Of a stretch of DNA of 33,442 bases, positions 1 to 20,029 are shown one piece after another. This stretch comes from Chloroflexota bacterium (GTDB lineage Bacteria; Chloroflexota; Limnocylindria; Limnocylindrales; CSP1-4). Under the pieces are notes generated by a model, which worked only from the letters and a program-made list of their open reading frames with translations, had not been told where the DNA came from and did no database searches. A program made the position numbers and the translations under genes. Position 1 is the stretch's first letter, and every line of letters starts with the position of its first letter. The stretch spans positions 19,234 through 52,675 of the forward strand of contig PMIP01000002.1 in the NCBI GenBank assembly GCA_003158295.1, given 5' to 3'.

Positions 1-782
1 AGCCTCGCGTACTCCTCGGGATCGGACTCCAGATAGTCCGAGTACGCGGCGAGCGTTGGCCGGGCTGTGGCCTTCATCCGGCCGCGCAACCGCCGCAGGA
101 TCGTGGCCGGCTTGTAGCTGCGAAAGTCGATGCCGCTTCGCGCGTGGATCCGGTCGAGAAGTCTGCCCAACTCATCGTGATCGGGCCCATCTGCCGGAGG
201 TTTACCGGCGGCCAGGAGATCGCACAGGATGGCTCCTATCGAGTCGAGATCGGCCGTCGCGTCGACCAGGGAAGGGGGAATCGAGCTCGGCATCGAGGGG
301 AACATCGCGGTCGCGGGGTTCTCGATAACGACCGCTCCGCCAGCCTTCTTCACGTGCCAGACTCCCGCCGAACCGTCGGAACCGCTGCCCGTGAGGATCA
401 CGGCGATGAGCCCCGGGCCGAAGACACTGGCGGCGCTCTCGAAGAGCACGTCGATGGAAGGTGCGACCGCGCCGGCCTTGGCCGCGTGAAGCCGGAGGTC
501 GCCGTGGCTGATCTCCACGAGCCTGTTCGAGGGGACGACGAAGATCACGCCGTTCTCCAGCGCCTCTCGCTCCTCGACCACTCGGACCGGCAGCGTGGCG
601 TGACGAGCGAGGATCTCGTGCAAATGGCTGGGGCGGCGGGGGTCGAGATGCTGCGCGATCACGATCGGCGCGGGGAAGTCGGCCGGCAGGCTCGCCACCA
701 CGCGGGAGAGCGCCTCGATGCCGCCCGCCGATGACCCGATCACGACGAGCTGAGATTCCACAGGGAACGCCGCTTTCGCCAC
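1..782 (-). CDS. CheB-CheR fusion protein (N-terminal part, cut by left edge)
   Basis: Reading the minus strand gives a frame open to the window edge. Residues about 12-190 are a CheB-type methylesterase domain. The active-site serine is in GSSAGG (about residue 18), the histidine in AQHLDP (about 45), and the aspartate in ILTGSGSDGS (about 140). After a short linker comes the helical N-terminal part of a CheR methyltransferase (GIDFRSYKPATILRRLRGRM). In the family, CheB removes and CheR adds methyl groups on chemoreceptor glutamates; CheB/CheR fusions often continue into PAS and kinase domains, which would lie outside the window. There is no receiver domain before CheB. I chose GTG 782 because a CATACT -10-like element lies about 10 bp upstream; GTG 761 is the alternative and neither start has a clear ribosome site. 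No receptor or flagellar gene is nearby, so a signalling role other than chemotaxis is possible. Confidence 0.85.
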   Translation of the reverse strand, partial: MAKAAFPVESQLVVIGSSAGGIEALSRVVASLPADFPAPIVIAQHLDPRRPSHLHEILARHATLPVRVVEEREALENGVIFVVPSNRLVEISHGDLRLHAAKAGAVAPSIDVLFESAASVFGPGLIAVILTGSGSDGSAGVWHVKKAGGAVVIENPATAMFPSMPSSIPPSLVDATADLDSIGAILCDLLAAGKPPADGPDHDELGRLLDRIHARSGIDFRSYKPATILRRLRGRMKATARPTLAAYSDYLESDPEEYAR

Positions 783-859: not shown

Positions 860-890
860 GGGTCTCCATCCTCGCAAAATGGGCGGTCAA
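860..890 (+). promoter_or_regulatory. CATCCTC box, copy 1 (upstream of 1022 gene)
   Basis: GGGTCTCCATCCTCGC at 860-875 matches the boxes at 1476, 2608 and 5906 (minus). GGTCAA follows at 885-890. The gap from the end of CATCCTC to GGTCAA is 11 bp, shorter than the 17-18 bp in the other copies, so this copy is the least certain as a promoter. It lies 132 bp before the ATG at 1022. Confidence 0.45.
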
Positions 891-1021
891 CTCCTACTTT
901 GGAGGGCCAGGGCGAGTCACATCGAGCCGCCGAGACGACGAAGCCCCGGGCCTGCTCGTGGGACTCATGAGCGCTGTGGTGGCTCTCGCCGTGACAGTCG
1001 GCGTGACGCGGAGGTTCTGAC

Positions 1022-1435
1022 ATGACGACGATTGAAGTCACGACGGAAACCCAGGACATCGAACCGGAGTCGTTCGAGGGCGCGCGAGCTGCCATCGATC
1101 AGGCCCGTATCGGGGTGTCCAACGCCATCGGGCACGTTCCGGATATCGCCGGCCTGGCTCGCGATCGCGCCGAGCAGGTCGCCGATCGGCTCCCGGGGGC
1201 GTTCGGCCGCGTGCAATCCGGCGCCGAGAAAGCCGTCACCAGGCTCCAGACGATGCCCGATTCGGCGCTGCGTCTGCTGGCGGCCGCATCGATCGGTCTG
1301 GGTGCCGGGCTCCGTCTTGCGGGTGCGCCGCGCCTGGTCACACTGGCGGGTTTCGCTCCCGCGTCGATCTTCGGTTTCGCAATCATGTCCCGCCCGCGCC
1401 GAATTCACCTGGCTTTGCACCCGACTCAGCCGTAG
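1022..1435 (+). CDS. hypothetical protein with C-terminal hydrophobic segment
   Basis: A 137-aa protein that I do not recognise. Residues 1-80 are polar and helix-prone (GARAAIDQARIGVSNAIG, DRAEQVADRLPGAFGRVQSG). Residues about 85-125 are hydrophobic and rich in Ala, Gly and Leu, compatible with one or two membrane helices, followed by a basic tail (SRPRRIH). The ATG has a GGAGG ribosome site 8 bp upstream. It is the first of a run of small envelope genes and has a CATCCTC box upstream, as the 1681 and 2733 genes do, which suggests shared stress control. A peripheral or membrane stress protein is the most I can infer. Confidence 0.75.
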   Translation: MTTIEVTTETQDIEPESFEGARAAIDQARIGVSNAIGHVPDIAGLARDRAEQVADRLPGAFGRVQSGAEKAVTRLQTMPDSALRLLAAASIGLGAGLRLAGAPRLVTLAGFAPASIFGFAIMSRPRRIHLALHPTQP

Positions 1436-1475
1436 GGCCGGCGCGGCAGCGCCTCGCAATCGATCCATTTCTACC

Positions 1476-1512
1476 GGGTTTTCATCCTCGCGTGACGCCG
1501 GCGGCCGGTCAA
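1476..1512 (+). promoter_or_regulatory. CATCCTC box, copy 2 (upstream of 1681 gene)
   Basis: GGGTTTTCATCCTCGCG at 1476-1492 is identical over 17 bases to copy 3 at 2608. After a 17-bp gap from CATCCTC comes GGTCAA at 1507-1512. The two-part layout with promoter-like spacing suggests -35 and -10 elements of an alternative sigma factor. The TTG start of the surface protein lies about 170 bp downstream. Confidence 0.55.
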
Positions 1513-1680
1513 GAATCGGACCTACGGTTCGGATTAGACAAAGGAAGCTATGACCAATGGGAAGGTCCACAGCTCTCGTTGCGTTGATACCCACGGTGGG
1601 ACACCGGTGAGCAACGACCCGACATAAGCGGAAGGGGCGCCACCGGCAACTCCCGATCCAACCTTTGAAAAGGAGTTTCC

Positions 1681-2484
1681 TTGGGCAGGTTCAGGTTCCT
1701 ATTCCGAGGCCTCATCGCCTTCGCTTTGCTGGCCCCGGTTTCCATGATCGCCACCGCACCTGTGTCCGCTGGGACGGCCGCCGCGACCACGACGTGTAGC
1801 AACGGTGTCGACAACACGCCCGGCCTCGGCCTGATTTGCCAGGTCACGATCGTCAACACCATCACGGGCAGTGGCGGATCCGCAAAAGTCACGATCCACG
1901 AGTGTCACGGCGCGGCGGGCGCGCCGACAGCCGCTTGCACGACGAAGACAACCACCCTGTCCGCGCCGGTGACCGTTGTCAATCAGTGCAACAACTCGAT
2001 CGGCGGCGGTGGCGGCACGCTCCGTTGCAGCGTCACGGTCACATCAAACTTCTACGGTGGCATCGGCCCGGGTGCGACGGCTGCAACGGTGAACCAGTGC
2101 GTCCGCTCAGGTGGCGGCATCACGACCGGCTGCGATCCCATCCCGGCCAACACAACCGGCGCCGCGATCACGCAGTGCAACGACTCGGCCAACGGCGGAA
2201 CCCTGGTCCAACTGACATGCACCGCGACCGGCACGATGTCCTCGGCCGTCGTGGTCACGATCAACCAGTGCAACGGCTCGGCCAATGGCGGCGGAGCCCT
2301 GGTCATATGCTCCGCCAGCCTGGCGAACAACGCGGTCAGCGGAACACCACCGCCCACCGGCACAGCCAGCCAGGGCTCGACGAGCGACAACTCGACACCG
2401 CTGCTGCCGCTGCTGGTCCTTCTGGCCTCGTGCGGGTTCGGTCTGGCAGTCGTCGCGGCCCGACGCCGGAGCATCTTCAGCTAA
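1681..2484 (+). CDS. secreted, membrane-anchored Cys-repeat surface protein
   Basis: A 267-aa protein with TTG start, supported by AAGGAG 6-7 bp upstream. Residues 1-30 form a signal peptide (basic start, LIAFALLAPV core, cleavage near PVSA-GT). The mature part holds about six imperfect units of 28-36 residues. The clearest contain an (N/T)QCNxS motif, glycine runs and a second Cys 10-14 residues later (NQCNNSIGGGGG, TQCNDSANGG, NQCNGSANGGG), alternating with Val/Thr-rich strands. One disulfide per unit and a beta-rich fold are likely. The C terminus is a hydrophobic helix (about 240-260) ending in RRR, a stop-transfer anchor; there is no LPxTG sorting motif. Function is unknown; an envelope surface layer or adhesin-like coat is possible. 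A strong hairpin follows the stop. Confidence 0.8.
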   Translation: MGRFRFLFRGLIAFALLAPVSMIATAPVSAGTAAATTTCSNGVDNTPGLGLICQVTIVNTITGSGGSAKVTIHECHGAAGAPTAACTTKTTTLSAPVTVVNQCNNSIGGGGGTLRCSVTVTSNFYGGIGPGATAATVNQCVRSGGGITTGCDPIPANTTGAAITQCNDSANGGTLVQLTCTATGTMSSAVVVTINQCNGSANGGGALVICSASLANNAVSGTPPPTGTASQGSTSDNSTPLLPLLVLLASCGFGLAVVAARRRSIFS

Positions 2485-2528
2485 GCCAACCCCGAGTCGC
2501 CTCGTGCGACTGCGAATGAGTCTTGCCT

Positions 2529-2560
2529 GATCGACGGGCCGCTCTCCCGGCCCGTCGATC
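2529..2560 (+). terminator. strong hairpin after surface protein gene
   Basis: A perfect 13-bp stem, arms GATCGACGGGCCG (2529-2541) and its complement (2548-2560), with a 6-nt loop, starting 45 bp after the stop of the surface protein gene. The following CCTATTCC is only weakly T-rich, so termination is inferred mainly from the stem. Confidence 0.7.
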
Positions 2561-2607
2561 CCTATTCCAGGCGGCGCTCCACCTCAACTCCGGCGCCACT
2601 TCGGCCG

Positions 2608-2645
2608 GGGTTTTCATCCTCGCGGAGCGGCCCCCCGCAGGTCCA
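2608..2645 (+). promoter_or_regulatory. CATCCTC box, copy 3 (upstream of YggT-like gene)
   Basis: GGGTTTTCATCCTCGCG at 2608-2624, then an 18-bp gap from CATCCTC to GGTCCA at 2640-2645. It lies 88 bp before the GTG start at 2733 and just after the hairpin at 2529-2560, so it is well placed as the promoter of the 2733-3507 pair. Confidence 0.6.
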
Positions 2646-2732
2646 CTATCGGATCACGACCACGGATCGAAGGCTCCACCGGCTTGATAGCCGGATGCAG
2701 GTTCATCGTCCGTCGTCGGGAAGAAGACCACC

Positions 2733-3146
2733 GTGACAGTTCAGGAACAGCGGAGCGTCACGACAGACGCGCCGACCACCACCGAGTCCGGTGGCCTTAG
2801 CAACCGGACCACCACCAGGCGCCAGCTCGACTTTCGGCCAAGCAACAACGAGACAACCCGCCGCATCGTCGTCCTCGTCTTCGGCCTGATCCAGATCGTC
2901 ATCGGCCTGCGGATCGTCCTGCTGCTGGTCGACGCCCGAACTGGCAATTTGCTCGTCTCAATCATCAACAACGTGGGCGGGCTGTTCACCGCGCCGTTCC
3001 AGGGGATCCTGCGCATCAGCGCCGTTTCCTCCGGCGGCTCCGTGCTCGACGTCGCCGCAGTCGTCGCCCTCGTGGGTTGGACGATCATCGAGCTGATCGT
3101 GATCTGGAGCCTCGCCATCTTCCGGCACGAGCCCGCCCTCGCCTGA
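2733..3146 (+). CDS. YggT-like small membrane protein
   Basis: A 137-aa protein with GTG start and a GGGAAG-type ribosome site. The first 43 residues are polar and rich in Thr, Ser and Arg, probably cytoplasmic. Two membrane regions follow: about 44-67 (VVLVFGLIQIVIGLRIVLLL) and about 105-128 (VAAVVALVGWTIIELIVIWS). Between them is a YggT-like loop with FTAPFQGIL. YggT proteins usually have two such halves and are linked to envelope or osmotic stress; this has one half plus an N-terminal extension. It sits 73 bp before the GlsB-like gene and carries an upstream CATCCTC box, in line with stress-induced expression. Confidence 0.7.
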   Translation: MTVQEQRSVTTDAPTTTESGGLSNRTTTRRQLDFRPSNNETTRRIVVLVFGLIQIVIGLRIVLLLVDARTGNLLVSIINNVGGLFTAPFQGILRISAVSSGGSVLDVAAVVALVGWTIIELIVIWSLAIFRHEPALA

Positions 3147-3219
3147 TCCAGTCGCTCCCCCAGCAGCCCTCGCCGACCGGCGTCGGGCTTGCGCTCACCA
3201 AGAAAGAAGAAGAACTTCC

Positions 3220-3507
3220 ATGCTAGACATTCCCAACATGACACTCCTTGCCTGGCTCGTCGTCGGCGCGATCGCCGGCTTCCTCGCCAGCATCATTACC
3301 GGATCCCGTGAAGGTCTCGTGATGATGGTCGTCCTCGGAATCGTGGGCGCCATCGTCGGCGGCTGGGTTGCCACCGATCTCCTCAAGATCGCCAACGTGA
3401 CCGGCATCAACACCACGAGCGTTATCGTCGCCGTGGTCGGGGCCCTCATCGTCATCTTCGTCGTTGGAAGCCTCGGCACCCGGCGTGGCGGGTACGGCTG
3501 GCGCTGA
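3220..3507 (+). CDS. GlsB/YeaQ/YmgE family stress-response membrane protein
   Basis: A 95-aa protein with three predicted membrane helices (about 8-27, 33-53 and 66-86). It has the family signature of glycines in the helices: LAWLVVGAIAGFLAS, GLVMMVVLGIVGAIVGGWV and SVIVAVVGALIVIFVVG. The family (transglycosylase-associated protein) is small, widespread and typically induced by general stress; its molecular role is not settled. The ATG follows a purine-rich stretch (AAGAAAGAAGAAG), a weak ribosome site. It lies 73 bp after the YggT-like gene without a clear terminator between them, so co-transcription from the box at 2608 is likely, ending at the hairpin at 3554. Confidence 0.85.
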   Translation: MLDIPNMTLLAWLVVGAIAGFLASIITGSREGLVMMVVLGIVGAIVGGWVATDLLKIANVTGINTTSVIVAVVGALIVIFVVGSLGTRRGGYGWR

Positions 3508-3553
3508 TGCGAGCACGCTTCTAGCGCGCCTGCCCTTGTTCTGACGGCACCAA

Positions 3554-3588
3554 GCAGGATCGGTCCCCGGACGAGGGGCCGATCCTGC
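3554..3588 (+). terminator. strong hairpin terminator after GlsB-like gene
   Basis: Arms GCAGGATCGG-T-CCCC (3554-3568) and GGGGCCGATCCTGC (3575-3588) pair along 14 bp with one bulged T and a 6-nt loop. The hairpin lies 46 bp after the stop and 29 bp before the next gene. The tail GCCTATTTG contains a short T tract. Confidence 0.75.
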
Positions 3589-3617
3589 GCCTATTTGCCA
3601 GCGTGATGGAGCCGGCC

Positions 3618-4820
3618 ATGGAACCCCGCTTCGCCTTTCTGTCAACCTATCCGCCGCGTCGCTGCGGCATCGCCACATTCACACGAGATCTGGCGGGTTC
3701 CGTGGGCAACCGGGAGATCGTGGCCATCCACTGGCCCGGCGATCGGATCCTGTACCCGCTCGAAGTCACCGGGCTCCTCCAGGGCGACAATCGCGCGGAC
3801 TATTCGCGGGCAGCCGATCAGGTCTCCGCGTCGGGTGTCTCGGTCGTCTCCATTCAGCACGAGTACGGCCTGTTCGGTGGCCGGGACGGCGACTTCATCC
3901 TCGACTTCCTCGACCGCATCCGGGTACCGGCCGTGGCGACCCTGCACACGGTGCTGCGCCAACCGAGCGCTTCACAGCGCCACGTCATGACGCGGCTCCT
4001 CGAGCGGACCGCCGCCGCCGTGGTCATGTCGCAGGCCGCGGCGAGATTGCTGCGGCGTGAATACGGCGCAGACAGCTCGCGGACGCGGGTGATCCCGCAC
4101 GGCGTACCCAACCTGCCGCTCGTCGACTCGGACCTGCGCAAGCCCGACTTCGGGCTCGAGGGTCGGTCGGTGATCCTGAGCTTCGGGCTCCTTGGGCCGG
4201 GCAAAGGGTACGAGCACGTGATCGAAGCCATGTCCCGCGTTCGGAGGGAACGCCCGGATGCGCTCTACGTGGTGCTCGGGGCAACGCACCCGAACCTCAT
4301 TCGCAGCGAGGGCGAGGCCTATCGAGATCGGCTGCGCAAGGCGGTGAACGACCTGGGCCTGCGCGGACACGTCCTCTTCGTCGATCGCTTCGTCGGCCAG
4401 GAAGAGCTGGGCCGGTGGCTCCAGGCCGCCGATGTCTTCGTCACGCCGTATCCCAACCTCGACCAGATCGTGTCCGGCACGCTTTCGTACGCGCTGGCCG
4501 CAGGCCGACCGGTCGTCTCCACGCCCTTCGCGTATGCATCCGAGGTGCTCTCCGGTGGTCGCGGCGTCATCGTCGAGCCCAACTCCCCGGAAGCCCTGGC
4601 GGACGGATTGAGCAGCCTTCTCGGCGATCGGGCCCGCCGAGGGAAGATTGGTCGAGCGGCCTACGCCTTCAGCCGCGGGAGGATCTGGCCCGAGGTCGGC
4701 GCCGCCTATCGCGCGTTGTTGACCCAGGTCGCGGCAGGCGCTCAGCTCGCGGGCAACTCCCAGGTCGCGCGCGGCGCCGAGATCTCGTACGAAGTCCCCG
4801 CCCTCGTGGCTCACGGCTGA
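3618..4820 (+). CDS. family 4 glycosyltransferase
   Basis: About 400 aa with a GT-B fold. The N-terminal half begins FAFLSTYPPRRCGIATFTRDL, with the glycine-rich acceptor-side loop common in GT4 enzymes. Around residue 185 the C-terminal nucleotide-sugar domain starts (ILSFGLLGPGKGYEHVIEA). The region around residues 285-310 (TPYPNLDQIVSGTLSYALAAGRPVVSTPF) corresponds to the donor-binding E-x7-E zone; its first acidic residue is replaced here by the DQIVSGT form often seen in this subgroup. ATG 3618 is preferred because GGAG lies 6-7 bp upstream; GTG 3603 and ATG 3606 are in frame. It would transfer a sugar to a lipid, glycan or small acceptor; the substrate cannot be read from sequence. It stands alone between a terminator and a convergent gene. 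Confidence 0.85.
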   Translation: MEPRFAFLSTYPPRRCGIATFTRDLAGSVGNREIVAIHWPGDRILYPLEVTGLLQGDNRADYSRAADQVSASGVSVVSIQHEYGLFGGRDGDFILDFLDRIRVPAVATLHTVLRQPSASQRHVMTRLLERTAAAVVMSQAAARLLRREYGADSSRTRVIPHGVPNLPLVDSDLRKPDFGLEGRSVILSFGLLGPGKGYEHVIEAMSRVRRERPDALYVVLGATHPNLIRSEGEAYRDRLRKAVNDLGLRGHVLFVDRFVGQEELGRWLQAADVFVTPYPNLDQIVSGTLSYALAAGRPVVSTPFAYASEVLSGGRGVIVEPNSPEALADGLSSLLGDRARRGKIGRAAYAFSRGRIWPEVGAAYRALLTQVAAGAQLAGNSQVARGAEISYEVPALVAHG

Positions 4821-4848
4821 GCGGGCACGCCTCGGGCGGGTCGCCGAC

Positions 4849-5586
4849 TCAGCGAACGGCGGTCCCAAGCAGCGCGCCTACGCCGTAGGTCACGGCGGCG
4901 GCGAGAAGGCCCAGCCCGGCCTGCCGAAGACCGGAGCGAAACGGATGGCGGTGGGTGAGCCGGCTGACGCCGAGCCCGACCAGGAACAGCGCGGTCAGCG
5001 TCGCGGCGATGCTCGTCGCGAGAGCTGTCGTTCCGGCGAATAGGACGAAAGGCACCAGGGGCACCGAGGCTCCGACCGCGAAGGCCAGCAACGAGCCCGC
5101 GGCGGCCGTCATTGGCAGGCCCATAGTCTTCGCGGAGAGACCGATCTCCTCGCGGACGAAGGTGGCAAGCGCCCGCTTTGGATTGGCCAGGAAGCGGTCG
5201 GCCACGAAGTTGGCGTCCGATCTCGAGAGGCCCCTCGACGTGTAGATCTCGACGAGAATCGCACGTTCCTGGTCGGGCGTCTGACGAAGTTGCCGGCGTT
5301 GGAGCTCGATCTGGTACTCGAGAAGCTCGTGCTGAGAACGGACCGAGACGTACTCGCCCACGGCCATGCTGAAGCTACCCGCCACGAGACCGGCAATGCC
5401 GGCCAGGACGACGGCATGGGGATCCTCGAACGACGCTCCGGCAACGCCCATGATCAGGCAGACGTTAGCCACGAGGCCGTCCGTGGCGCCGAACACAGTC
5501 GGGCGCAGGATGCTCGAGCCGCGCGTCTCGTGAGGGCTCGTCGGGGTCGCCAGCAGCGCTCGCAGGCCGGACCAGATGGCATTCAC
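4849..5586 (-). CDS. VIT1/CCC1 family iron/manganese transporter
   Basis: About 245 aa. After a cytosolic N terminus, ILRPTVFGATDGLVANVCLIMGVAGA marks the first helix of the VIT1/CCC1 (DUF125) family. It is followed by GLVAGSFSMAVGEYVSVRSQ, an acidic/helical loop of about 80 residues (ELQRRQLRQTPDQERAILVEIY, typical of the metal-binding cytosolic region) and three C-terminal helices. The family moves Fe2+ or Mn2+ out of the cytoplasm. GTG 5586 was chosen because longer forms would overlap the 54-aa gene ending at 5631; it lacks a good ribosome site, so translation may be coupled to that gene 44 bp upstream. Together with the NRAMP-like gene at 6001 it suggests a metal homeostasis theme. Confidence 0.85.
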   Translation of the reverse strand: MNAIWSGLRALLATPTSPHETRGSSILRPTVFGATDGLVANVCLIMGVAGASFEDPHAVVLAGIAGLVAGSFSMAVGEYVSVRSQHELLEYQIELQRRQLRQTPDQERAILVEIYTSRGLSRSDANFVADRFLANPKRALATFVREEIGLSAKTMGLPMTAAAGSLLAFAVGASVPLVPFVLFAGTTALATSIAATLTALFLVGLGVSRLTHRHPFRSGLRQAGLGLLAAAVTYGVGALLGTAVR

Positions 5587-5630
5587 CGCCGCGAACCAGG
5601 CGGTCGGATATCGGGCTCGCGCCCGATCGG

Positions 5631-5795
5631 TCAGACGATGAACGACAGGAAGCCGAAGAACAGGCCGAGGTCGGTCCAGCCGATCTTGTCGGTCGAGAAC
5701 AGGCCGGCAGTCTCGAGCACGGCGATCACGAAGCAGATGCAGGCTACGAGGACCAGCAGCGACCTGTTGCTGCTGAACATTCCTCTGCGATTCAT
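5631..5795 (-). CDS. 54-aa two-helix membrane protein
   Basis: A small protein, MNRRGMF start, supported by GGAG 7 bp before the ATG. It has two hydrophobic stretches: residues about 12-30 (RSLLVLVACICFVIAVLETA) and about 40-54 (TDLGLFFGFLSFIV). I do not recognise a family. It lies 44 bp upstream of the VIT1/CCC1 gene on the same strand, so the two are probably co-transcribed. A CATCCTC box is 75-110 bp upstream, linking it to the stress-type genes at 1022-3507. It could be a small stress membrane protein or an accessory to the transporter. Confidence 0.7.
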   Translation of the reverse strand: MNRRGMFSSNRSLLVLVACICFVIAVLETAGLFSTDKIGWTDLGLFFGFLSFIV

Positions 5796-5868
5796 GGAAG
5801 TCTCCTCGACTGGGCGCCCGGCCCGCTCGGCCGAAATGGACAAAGTCGGATTGGGCCCGCTTCGAGTC

Positions 5869-5906
5869 TGATCCTGTCCGACAGCCGCCCGTGAGGATGA
5901 AGACCC
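5869..5906 (-). promoter_or_regulatory. CATCCTC box, copy 4 (upstream of 54-aa gene)
   Basis: On the minus strand GGGTCTTCATCCTCACGG (5906-5889) is followed, 18 bp after CATCCTC, by GGATCA (5874-5869). The layout is the same as in copies 2 and 3 but on the opposite strand, pointing at the 54-aa protein and transporter genes; the ATG is 74 bp downstream. Confidence 0.5.
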
Positions 5907-6000: not shown

Positions 6001-7365
6001 TCAGCCGAAGATGGTCGTCAGGATCAAGGCGACGGCGGCCACTCCCATGACGATGGTGGTGAGCCACCCAACGACATTCAGAAGACGGCCATTCGTTCGC
6101 TCGCCCATCACCGCGCGATCGTTCGAGACGAGCATGACGAGGATCAGCAGTGGCGCGCCGACGAGGCCATTCAGCACCGCGCTCAGGACAAGAGCGGTGA
6201 TCGGATTGATCCCGAGATAATTGATGGCCATCCCGACCAGGGTCGCCGCGACGATGACCGCGTAGAACTGCGGCGCACGAGTCAGCTTGCGATCGAGCCC
6301 CGACGCCCAGCCGAACGCCTCCGAGACGCCGTACGCCGCGGATCCCGTCAGGACGGGGACCGCCAGCACTCCGGCTCCGATGAGCCCCACGGCGAGCAGG
6401 AGGGCGGACGCGTCGCCAGCCAGCGGACGTAGCGCCTGTGCCGCATCGGTGGCCGAGGCCACATCGTGCTTGCCCGCGACGAACAGAGTGGCACCGGTGG
6501 TGAGAATGATGAAGTAGGCCACGATTTCCGAGAAGACCATCCCGGCGATCGTGTCCCACAGTGCGTACTTGAGCTCAAACCGCGACGCCCCCTGCCGATC
6601 CCGGAGCTTGCGACGCCCCATGCTGATCTGCTCCTCGACTTCCTGGCTCGCCTGCCAGAAGAAGAGATACGGCGATATCGTCGTGCCAAGGAGTGCCACG
6701 ACGATGCCGATGTACGCGGGGTCGAGCCGGATCGTCGGGATCAGCGAGCCCGCCAGCACCTTCACGATATCGGGTCGCGCGAAGAGGGCCGCCCCGATGT
6801 AGGCAAGGAGGGCCAGGGCCAGCCATTTGAACACCTTCTCGATCAGGCGATAGCTGCCCAAGAGCTGGAGCGCGATGATCGCGAGGCTCACGGGCACGAT
6901 GAAGACGTACGCCTCGATCGGCACGAGAAGATTTATGGCCGCTGCTATGGCGCCGATGTCCGCGCCCGCGTTGAGAGTGTTAGCGATCACGAGGGCGATC
7001 ACGGCGGGGTACAGCGCGCGGCGGTAATGCTCTCGGAGAACACCCGCCAGGCCTTTGCCGGTTACCAGGCCGATCCTGGCGCAGATGTACTGGACGGCGG
7101 TCTGCATCGGCAGCATGGCGAGAGTCGTCCAGAGCGTGGCGAAGCCGTACTGCGCGCCGGCCTGGGCGTAGGTTCCGATCCCGGATGGATCGTCGTCCGA
7201 TGCGCCGGTTATGAGGCCCGGACCGAGGGCCTTAGCCAGGCGCGTCAACGGGTTCTTCGCGGCCCGCAGCTTGGCCGCCTTCGGATCGACGGGCCGCCCG
7301 GGGTCGACCCGCGGCTCGCCGGCCGTGGTCGACGCGTTCCGGCCGGGCGCGGCGTCAGCCCCCAT
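6001..7365 (-). CDS. NRAMP-related divalent metal transporter
   Basis: 454 aa with about 11 membrane helices after a polar 35-residue N terminus. The fold is clearly NRAMP (LGPGLITGA, AQAGAQYGFATLW, QYICARIGLVTGKGLAGVLREHY). The metal-site motifs differ from classic Mn/Fe transporters. Helix 1 reads D59-P-S-G62 where NRAMPs have DPGN, and helix 6 reads TTISPYLFF (about 228-236) where they have the AMPHN type. That resembles NRAMP-related proteins, some of which carry Mg2+, so the substrate should not be assumed to be Mn2+. Its ATG overlaps the stop of the upstream gene (ATGGGGGCTGA at 7365-7355), so translation is probably coupled. Confidence 0.85.
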   Translation of the reverse strand: MGADAAPGRNASTTAGEPRVDPGRPVDPKAAKLRAAKNPLTRLAKALGPGLITGASDDDPSGIGTYAQAGAQYGFATLWTTLAMLPMQTAVQYICARIGLVTGKGLAGVLREHYRRALYPAVIALVIANTLNAGADIGAIAAAINLLVPIEAYVFIVPVSLAIIALQLLGSYRLIEKVFKWLALALLAYIGAALFARPDIVKVLAGSLIPTIRLDPAYIGIVVALLGTTISPYLFFWQASQEVEEQISMGRRKLRDRQGASRFELKYALWDTIAGMVFSEIVAYFIILTTGATLFVAGKHDVASATDAAQALRPLAGDASALLLAVGLIGAGVLAVPVLTGSAAYGVSEAFGWASGLDRKLTRAPQFYAVIVAATLVGMAINYLGINPITALVLSAVLNGLVGAPLLILVMLVSNDRAVMGERTNGRLLNVVGWLTTIVMGVAAVALILTTIFG

Positions 7366-9415
7366 GCTCGTCTTGCAGTTGGGCCCGCCACGCCATCAAC
7401 TGGCGGTACACGGCCGGCGCCCCCAGGGGCGGATCTTCGGCCAGCTTCATGGCCGCCGGGCACAGGATGAACGGCTCACTCTGCCCTCCGCCCAGGCCGC
7501 CATGCGAGCCGATGAGCTCCTCGAAACCGGTGACCTCTCCTGAGGCGCGGTCTATGGCGCCCAGCAGGATCAGGTCGCCGGCATTCGGAAAGCTCTCGAG
7601 GTGCAGCAGGTTCTCGCCCGCCAGCGGACCGTAGTCGGCCATGGCGTCGCTGCGATCGGGCTGGCCCGCGGTCAAATCCAGCCGGCCATGCGGCCCCAGC
7701 ACGAGCACCTCGCCGGCGTCGGACCTGACTAGCAGCGCTCCTATCCCTGGATGACGCGCCAGCGCCTCGATCAGCCCCGGCCAGCGCAGCTCGATCGCCT
7801 CGCAAGTCGCCCGGCCCGACTCACCGGTGAAGTAGACGTGGGCCAGGCTGCCGGACGAACACACGACGACATCCGGAGGGGCGGCGGCGGCGTCAATTCT
7901 GGACCGCCCCAGGGCACGGCGCAGCCCACCTGCCAGCATCGGTCCCAGGCTGGAGCCTCGGCCGAACTCGGCCGCGATGCGCCGGCCGACACCCGCCGAT
8001 TCGACCGCGTCGGCGCTGCCCACGACGGTAGTCGCGCCGGGCAGCAGGGCGGCGATCGTCGCCTCGAGCGATTGGCCGTAGCGCTGATGGAACGTGGCCC
8101 CGAGGCACTGACCGTGGTCCGAGAGCACGACCAGCCGATAGGCCCGGCTGGTGTATCGAGCAGCCTTCAACAGCGAGCCGATGGCCCGATCGATGCCTTC
8201 GAGCGCATCGATCGCCTCCACACGCTCGGGGCCGCAGTGATGGGCGATGGCATCGTAGCCCGTGTAGTCCACGTAGATGGTCGGCGCCGAGCAATGCATC
8301 TCTTCGATCACGAGGGCCGTCGAGACGGTCCGTAGCGCGACGTTGGTAACGGCGCGTTCGACGGCGAAGGCCAGGTCTCGGTGCATGCGGGGCTCGACCG
8401 AATGGGCGCGCTGGCGCTCCGCCTGATACAGCTCCTTGGTCATTTCGCCGGCCATCAGCACCAGCAGGCGGATGTAGTCGACGGTGGTGACGAAGAGGCC
8501 GCGCAGGCGCCGTTCGTCGTCGGTCGACCCGCCCTGGGCGATCGTGGCCATGGTCAGGTAGCTGCGTGGCGCATCGCCCGTCACGAGGTTCCCGATGCTG
8601 GCTCCGCCGTCGGCGAGCAGTCCCGAGCCGTCGCTGATTCGGCGGACGATCTCGGCCGCGTCGTCCGGGTGGTTGGCCACGAACAACCTGGCGCTTTCCT
8701 TCTCGTACCAGCGAAAGCCGGGGATGCCGTCGTTGCGCCCGTGCAGGATGCCGGCCTGACTGGCGGGCGTCGTGGGCGGGAGCAAAGCGACCCAGGGGTG
8801 GAGCGTGGCCTCACCGTCGCGCAACAGTCGGGCGAGCACGGGAGCGCGCCCGGCCCGGACCACCTGGTCAAGGACGGGCAGGCTCAGGCCGTCGATCTGG
8901 ACCACCAGCAGACCCGGATTCGGATCCCTGGCGCGTCCGAAGTCGCGTGCCACCAACCGCCGGACGAGCACGCTGTAGTAGGAATCGTCGTCGCTCACCG
9001 CCACGATTTCGGCGAGGACCCCGTTGAGTGCGGTCAGCCACACGGTCGCCCAAATCGCCGTGCTGGGCCCGTCCACCTGGATGCCCGGCACGAAACGACC
9101 CAGGGCGAGGATGGCCGCGTACTGCGCGAGGAGTCCAACGCCATCGACCGCGAGCAGAGGAAGTCCCACCAGGAGCCAGTGCCCCAGGAGGCGCGACCCG
9201 GCATTCACGGCGGCCAGCAGGGCGCCTCCCAGAACGATTGCGGCGAGTCCCTGCACGTGGAACTCCGGGAGCACCAGGTCCACAGTGGCCAACGTCAGGC
9301 ACGCCACGAGGAACTGCAGGATCGTGCGCCGGACGATCGCAAGCCGAGTGGGCCGCCATTCCCACATCAAGCTCGCCTGGAGGCGGAGGTCGGCGACGAT
9401 GCCTGCGAGAGACAT
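7355..9415 (-). CDS. holin-like membrane domain fused to type I phosphodiesterase
   Basis: 686 aa. Residues about 25-140 contain four membrane helices that fit the PF04020-type 4-TM phage-holin-like domain of actinobacteria and relatives. Residues about 168-686 are an alkaline phosphatase superfamily phosphodiesterase/nucleotide pyrophosphatase domain. Visible metal-site elements are VVQIDGLS (Asp175), the nucleophile Thr in PPTTPASQAG (about 215), an Asp/His pair in VDYTGYDAIAHHCG, and SDHG. The catalytic part therefore looks intact and membrane-tethered; substrate unknown. The ATG at 9415 has no strong ribosome site; an internal ATG at residue 17 has AGGCGAG before it. It overlaps the NRAMP-like gene by 11 bp. 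Confidence 0.85.
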   Translation of the reverse strand: MSLAGIVADLRLQASLMWEWRPTRLAIVRRTILQFLVACLTLATVDLVLPEFHVQGLAAIVLGGALLAAVNAGSRLLGHWLLVGLPLLAVDGVGLLAQYAAILALGRFVPGIQVDGPSTAIWATVWLTALNGVLAEIVAVSDDDSYYSVLVRRLVARDFGRARDPNPGLLVVQIDGLSLPVLDQVVRAGRAPVLARLLRDGEATLHPWVALLPPTTPASQAGILHGRNDGIPGFRWYEKESARLFVANHPDDAAEIVRRISDGSGLLADGGASIGNLVTGDAPRSYLTMATIAQGGSTDDERRLRGLFVTTVDYIRLLVLMAGEMTKELYQAERQRAHSVEPRMHRDLAFAVERAVTNVALRTVSTALVIEEMHCSAPTIYVDYTGYDAIAHHCGPERVEAIDALEGIDRAIGSLLKAARYTSRAYRLVVLSDHGQCLGATFHQRYGQSLEATIAALLPGATTVVGSADAVESAGVGRRIAAEFGRGSSLGPMLAGGLRRALGRSRIDAAAAPPDVVVCSSGSLAHVYFTGESGRATCEAIELRWPGLIEALARHPGIGALLVRSDAGEVLVLGPHGRLDLTAGQPDRSDAMADYGPLAGENLLHLESFPNAGDLILLGAIDRASGEVTGFEELIGSHGGLGGGQSEPFILCPAAMKLAEDPPLGAPAVYRQLMAWRAQLQDEHGG

Positions 9416-19261: not shown

Positions 19262-20029
19262 TCAGAGCGAGGCCACCACCCCGCCGATGCGGTCGGTGAT
19301 CACCGCCGCAACCTCGCGGGCGCGATCTACGAGCTCGGGCACGCGACTGGGCGTGATCCGGTTGCCCGAGGCGCGGACCTCGAGTGTGGCCACGACCGCC
19401 GCTCGCTGGTCGAAGACCGGCACCGCCACGGCGTTCACGGAAGGCTCATGCTCGCCGAAGGCGGTGGCGAAGCCACGCTTGCGGACCCGAGCGAGCTCTT
19501 CGAGTAGGAGATCCACCCGAACGATGGTATGAGATGTGTACGGCGTGAAGCCGATCTTCGAAAGGCGAATGACCTCGCGCTCCGGCTGGCTGGCCAGAAG
19601 CACCTTGCCCGGAGCCGTGGCGTGGAGCGGCGAGTTGCGGCCGGTCCGGTCGCGACCCATTCCGGAGGCATCCGAATAGGCGATCGTGAGGACGCTGTCG
19701 CCTTCGAGGACCTCGAGGGTCGTCGTTTCGTGGATGGACCTGGCGAGGGCCTCGAGCTCCGACATCGCGATCGACCGCAGATCCAGCGACTTCTCCGCGT
19801 GGCCCCCGAGCCGCACGACTGCCAGTCCTAGGCGGTACTTACCCGAGTCGTCGTCCTGTTCCACCAGGCCGCGCTTCTGGAGAGTGGCGAGCAACCGCGA
19901 CGCGGTCGACTTGTGGAGTCCGAGGCGGCGGGCCAACTCGGTGACTCCGGCCTCTCCTGGCATCTCCCCCAGCGCTATCAGGAGTGACGCCGCGCGGTCG
20001 ACTGACCGAACCGCATTCCCGTCGAGCAT
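19262..20029 (-). CDS. IclR family transcriptional regulator
   Basis: 255 aa, ATG with AGGAG 7-8 bp upstream. Residues 8-65 are the winged helix-turn-helix (SVDRAASLLIALGEMPGEAGVTELARRLGLHKSTASRLLATLQKRGLVEQ). Residues about 80-250 are the IclR ligand domain (NSPLHATAPGKVLLA, FGEHEPSVNAVAVPVFDQRAAVVATLEV). The family binds small metabolites and usually controls a nearby catabolic gene. The divergent neighbour at 20477 is a PLP enzyme of the cysteine desulfurase type; the 447-bp gap between them carries two palindromes, so control of both genes is plausible. The effector is unknown. Confidence 0.9.
   Translation of the reverse strand: MLDGNAVRSVDRAASLLIALGEMPGEAGVTELARRLGLHKSTASRLLATLQKRGLVEQDDDSGKYRLGLAVVRLGGHAEKSLDLRSIAMSELEALARSIHETTTLEVLEGDSVLTIAYSDASGMGRDRTGRNSPLHATAPGKVLLASQPEREVIRLSKIGFTPYTSHTIVRVDLLLEELARVRKRGFATAFGEHEPSVNAVAVPVFDQRAAVVATLEVRASGNRITPSRVPELVDRAREVAAVITDRIGGVVASL

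Follow-up and report, generated by a model that had tools for sequence, protein, structure and literature searches.

The window analysed here, a stretch of 33,442 nucleotides from a Chloroflexota genome, carries four similar sequence boxes in front of small genes, which raises the question of what these boxes are and which protein reads them. The initial annotation took each box, together with a GGTC-type word downstream, for the -35 and -10 elements of one alternative sigma factor that defines a stress regulon. Inspection of the window sequence confirmed the places of all four boxes (Table 1), copy 3 being the same as copy 2 over 17 bases, and GGTC-type words were indeed present 11, 17, 18 and 18 bp after CATCCTC in copies 1 to 4. 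The distance to a start codon, given before as 74-170 bp, came out slightly different, at about 94-189 bp when measured from the end of the 17-bp box, and for copy 2 it varies with the choice of start codon.

Table 1. Coordinates of boxes, -10 hexamers, genes and leader in and beside the window (G, C and L numbers are our handles for genomes, contigs and loci).
Feature	Position	Strand	Remarks
Box copy 1	860..876	+	GGGTCTCCATCCTCGCA; syntenic copies in G006 (L050) and G019 (L316)
Box copy 2	1476..1492	+	GGGTTTTCATCCTCGCG
Box copy 3	2608..2624	+	GGGTTTTCATCCTCGCG; kept before yggT in 13 species
Box copy 4	5890..5906	-	GGGTCTTCATCCTCACG; same box-gene pair in G019 and G008
-10 hexamer TACTTT of copy 1	895..900	+	23 bp after CATCC; predicted transcription start about 907
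-10 hexamer AAGAAT of copy 2	1511..1516	+	23 bp after CATCC; predicted start about 1523
-10 hexamer CACTAT of copy 3	2644..2649	+	24 bp after CATCC; predicted start about 2656
-10 hexamer CAGACT of copy 4	5865..5870	-	24 bp after CATCC; predicted start about 5858
137-aa protein gene, downstream of copy 1	1022..1435	+	C-terminal half hydrophobic; no Pfam hit
Cys-repeat surface protein gene, downstream of copy 2	1681..2484	+	Box-gene pair also in G030, another genus
yggT leader, about 77 nt	2656..2732	+	Sequence and length conserved in 13 species
YggT-like membrane protein gene	2733..3146	+	PF02325, below cut-off
GlsB / Transgly_assoc protein gene	3220..3507	+	Has its own box in other species
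54-aa membrane protein gene	5631..5795	-	First gene after copy 4
VIT1-family transporter gene	4849..5631	-	Second gene after copy 4; directly after the box in G020
CheB-CheR-PAS-histidine kinase gene, 5' part (CheB domain)	1..782	-	Continues left of the window, C29:16808-19231
NarL-type response regulator gene	C29:16197-16802	-	Follows the kinase gene

The genome of the window (2,718,830 bases, or 2.72 Mb, in an assembly that is 85% complete) was compared with 20 relatives of the same genus by means of a composite pattern, GGGTNNNCATCCT followed by 22-23 bp and NANNNT, which was fitted mostly on the relatives. Searched as GGGTNNNCATCCTN{22,23}NANNNT, it matched exactly four times in the 2,718,830 bases, at the four copies, and did not match at all in the reversed control. 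The strict motif is thus confined to one 5-kb cluster in this genome, and the wider regulon is visible in sister species, most genomes of the genus having 4-19 composite sites. The exact 13-mer GGGTTTTCATCCT gave 57 matches in 17 of the 21 genus genomes and none in the reversed control. A class-wide search of 177 genomes with a 15-mer returned matches only in the own genus and in one genome of another genus (G030), and a scan of 84,980 species genomes (257 Gb) with the long motif plus the -10 yielded 25 loci, of which 24 belong to Chloroflexi MAGs with fens as their main source, so that the motif is not widespread. Against the possibility that the motif is as common inside genes as upstream of them, 95 of 127 sites lay outside called ORFs, although the ORFs, which a simple script called, extend over 78% of the loci; of the other sites, many look like over-long ORF calls or coding coincidences. 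We are nearly certain that the four boxes are real promoter elements, placed before membrane and stress genes, of a genus of uncultured peat-soil Chloroflexota. No paper on such promoters came up in our literature searches.

The second element was examined in 60 exact boxes, nearly all of them collected without selection for a -10: GGTC-like words were found at only 11, whereas xANNNT stood 23-24 bp after CATCC at 59 (other gaps average 1.4). These counts do not support CATCCTC and GGTC as the -35/-10 pair of an alternative sigma factor, and GGTC was rejected as the -10 because a minority of sites carries it. Anchoring of 55 distinct exact boxes produced a sharp TANNNT peak 23-24 bp after CATCC and no GGTC peak of comparable size. 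When GGGT-N4-ATCC and TANNNT were searched with any gap of 18-29, 68 of 102 matches fell at gaps 23-24, and CATCCT was present in 64 of these 68 versus 7 of the 34 at other gaps. Among all distinct sites, some of which had been selected for the hexamer, 117 of 121 showed xANNNT at gap 22-25. The hexamers were mostly of the form (T/C)ANNNT (TAGCGT, CAGACT, CACTAT, CAGTAT, TAGAGT and similar). The element common to all four window copies is likewise a -10-like hexamer, not GGTC, and copy 1, an exception in the GGTC model with its 11-bp gap, fits the xANNNT model perfectly. In the window, CATCCTCN{15,20}GGWYMA had 3 matches versus 0.07 expected; the genome-wide scan with CATCCTC-N15/20-GGWYMA failed to extend this, giving 11 matches versus 2 in the reversed control, with 8 outside the cluster that were unlike the box.

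xANNNT is the signature of primary-type sigma factors, and the -10 hexamer is very likely of the sigma A type. The conserved 17 bp lie mostly upstream of the -35 position. No TTGACA was found as a -35 at 17-18 bp upstream of the -10, where the sequence reads TCGCGG instead, so that an activator is to be expected. A conserved operator that overlaps the -35 region, at a fixed spacing of 23 or 24 to the -10, is the arrangement of a class II promoter. We propose that the four boxes would be operators of one class of activator-dependent promoters, in which the 17-bp box GGGTWYYCATCCTCGCG spans about -47 to -31, TTGACA is lacking, the primary sigma factor would read the -10 hexamer and the DNA-bound activator would hold RNA polymerase at a poor -35 region.

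Across the genus, the families that recur downstream of the box are YggT, GlsB, a membrane protein family of about 200 aa, the copy-1 protein (homologues of which stand under the same box in other species, in a protein cluster of 8), lipoproteins and the Cys-repeat surface protein, and further YccF, IclR, CsbD, AI-2E-like permeases (a name given by inspection), DUF1269, DUF5661, DUF6582 and VIT1. The earlier view that the boxes are promoter elements of one regulon is supported; its assignment of the targets to a stress/envelope type agrees with the CsbD, GlsB/Transgly_assoc, YccF, DUF1269, DUF5661 and VIT1 families. Judged from these gene families, the regulon may be induced by stress. Conservation of one box-gene pair across genera follows from G030, where a box precedes the Cys-repeat surface protein as well; it is one of two boxes that stand back to back, 54 bp apart, at C59:3248-3383 (L319).

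In 13 species, the box and its spacing are kept upstream of yggT, together with a conserved leader. The predicted fold of this leader consists of a closing stem and an inner hairpin, with compensatory change at only 2 pairs, and Rfam gave no match in the window and none for the leader at E<=1. We regard it as a candidate, and it is possibly a regulatory leader RNA.

The start of a kinase gene lies about 80 bp from copy 1, and this kinase is encoded directly upstream of a response regulator (Table 1). CheB, CheR, PAS, HisKA and HATPase_c domains are united in one protein, as in CheB/CheR-fusion kinases, and the regulator combines a receiver domain (PF00072, 7e-19), whose CDIRL aspartate is conserved within the genus, with a LuxR-type HTH (GerE, PF00196, 9e-13), as in the NarL/FixJ family. 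Just left of window position 1 (C29:19209-19233), there are ambiguous bases, around which the kinase gene falls into two frames. Related genomes have one intact 1093-aa protein, intact orthologues of 1093-1127 aa being present in G019, G030 and G119, and the split is probably an assembly flaw.

Regulator (at least 81% identity) and kinase (at least 76%) were found in the same 15 genomes of the genus, with the regulator partial in two of them (G005 and G006), and these 15 have 4-19 composite sites. The six genomes that lack both contain 0 (G012 and G018), 1 (G009), 2 (G002), 3 (G014, two after discounting an overlapping duplicate) and 10 (G003) sites. Site numbers with and without the regulator differed at p 0.001 in a Mann-Whitney test that ignores relatedness. 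Of 13 genomes tested for a box near the kinase-regulator operon, 12 have one at a distance of no more than 170 bp, compared with 0.02-0.11 expected within 6 kb; the linkage is inherited within the genus, so that the 13 genomes are not independent. Two other genera, represented by G030 (g11) and G119 (g7), have a box about 26 bp after the regulator gene. That of G030 precedes a glucose-6-phosphate dehydrogenase-like gene (named by inspection), and a second box on the same contig precedes a glycine-zipper protein. That of G119 lies before a UlaG-like hydrolase gene (also named by inspection) and a two-domain gene, the product of the latter being encoded directly behind the box. The two domains are a holin-like membrane domain and a type I phosphodiesterase domain, and the window encodes a protein with both of them at 7355-9415 (minus strand). 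The recognition helix KTVES(Q/R)LRR is common to the regulators of g1, G030 and G119; among the more distant homologues, several have ESH or EGM instead.

Collectively, box, -10, spacing, position before genes, conservation and linkage to the operon are established at the sequence level. A class II activator would fit the position of the box, a -10 like that of sigma A, the lack of a -35 and the NarL-type regulator encoded nearby, and co-occurrence and linkage indicate that the NarL-type response regulator is probably the activator of the box promoters. We infer that it binds the box and activates there, with sigma A as the sigma factor and a stress as the signal; the kinase encoded directly upstream would phosphorylate it, and the path would run from signal to kinase, regulator and box, and from there to membrane and stress proteins. 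Against the regulator speaks that many NarL-type sites are palindromic and the box is not a clean palindrome; the dyad GG-N8-CC might form a symmetric operator, but the 3' part TCGCG has no mirror on the left. A broader proposal, which we offer only tentatively, is that the CheB-CheR-PAS kinase and the NarL-type regulator might together be the master switch by which soil Limnocylindria control a general stress response. The work that sigma B, sigma F or EcfG do elsewhere would then fall to sigma A and one long asymmetric operator, and the methylation domains would tune the sensor without any chemotaxis receptor.

Not every genome obeys the pairing of regulator and box, and this bears on whether another genus-wide activator, such as a different response regulator or an IclR-type protein, reads the box with the primary sigma factor, the operon being a mere neighbour or a target. 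Four genomes keep boxes without the regulator. G003 has its composite sites without regulator, kinase or yggT cluster, the whole YggT-kinase region being missing from an assembly that is 88% complete, and G002 has its two in a 92% complete one; assembly gaps may explain some of these genomes, but hardly all. In G048, conversely, the kinase is present along with a regulator that is 67% identical and has the same helix, yet there is no box. An IclR-family regulator encoded in the window (19262-20026, minus strand) occurs in all genomes of the genus, and the gene of an IclR paralogue (71-82% identical) is preceded by a box in about six other species. The window protein itself was rejected as the regulator, since G012 and G018 have its orthologue but no box, and several genomes rich in boxes lack the paralogue that has one before its gene. 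Moreover, no other gene is known to track the box, and we consider a different activator unlikely.

An alternative sigma factor of the genus, reading the box as its -35 and the hexamer, in place of GGTC, as its -10, would account for two elements at a fixed spacing; mycobacterial SigK reads a CCATCC -35, and the genome holds 39 sigma-70 region-4-like hits, many in ECF-like proteins and some in LuxR-type regulators. The 17-bp box is nevertheless longer than a -35 element and its -10 is of the xANNNT type, as for primary sigma factors, and we judge this explanation to be distinctly improbable. The ECF gene nearest the cluster (C29:13055-13558) was discarded as the box reader, as the syntenic regions of G019 and G020 did not show it, and a sigma B-type promoter was dismissed, the sigma B motif not fitting the box. 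To the left of the window (C29:11544-13558), an ORF that has a putative Cys/His anti-sigma motif but no Pfam hit follows this ECF gene and overlaps it. That the boxes are a dispersed repeat or a chance similarity without regulatory function might be suggested by the identity of copies 2 and 3 and by the crowding of all four within 5 kb, but only box and -10 are shared while the flanks differ, orthologous copies stand before orthologous genes in 13 species, and the spacing to xANNNT is fixed; the comparative data refute this reading.

Among known systems, the proposed NarL-type activator resembles that of the DosR/DevR regulon of Mycobacterium tuberculosis, with a NarL-family response regulator, a site overlapping the -35 and a TANNNT-type -10, and the DevR structure 3c3w was among the sequence matches of the regulator. 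DosR sites are palindromic (GGGAC...GTCCC), whereas the box described here is asymmetric, and a CheB-CheR-PAS fusion kinase is unlike DosS/DosT. At SigA promoters with -10s of the TANNNT type, the primary DosR site overlaps the -35 region in a class II-like manner (PMC5360333). DesR, ChrA, NarL and VraR, the closest solved sequences, share receiver and GerE domains over the whole length, but have other partner kinases. The general stress systems under sigma B/sigma F in Firmicutes and Actinobacteria and under EcfG in Alphaproteobacteria have similar targets, e.g. CsbD and GlsB-type proteins. Their promoter motifs do not match the box promoters, however: sigma B reads GTTT-N14-GGGTA and EcfG reads GGAAC-N16-CGTT.

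What appeared as a local repeat has become a defined promoter class in which every site has a predicted transcription start. Its target genes can be listed and a regulator proposed, all in a lineage of class rank that is described as uncultivated, and the predictions can be tested without cultivation. In the literature that we searched, no described target genes of CheB/CheR-fusion kinases were found. If true, the link to the regulator would give these kinases an output.
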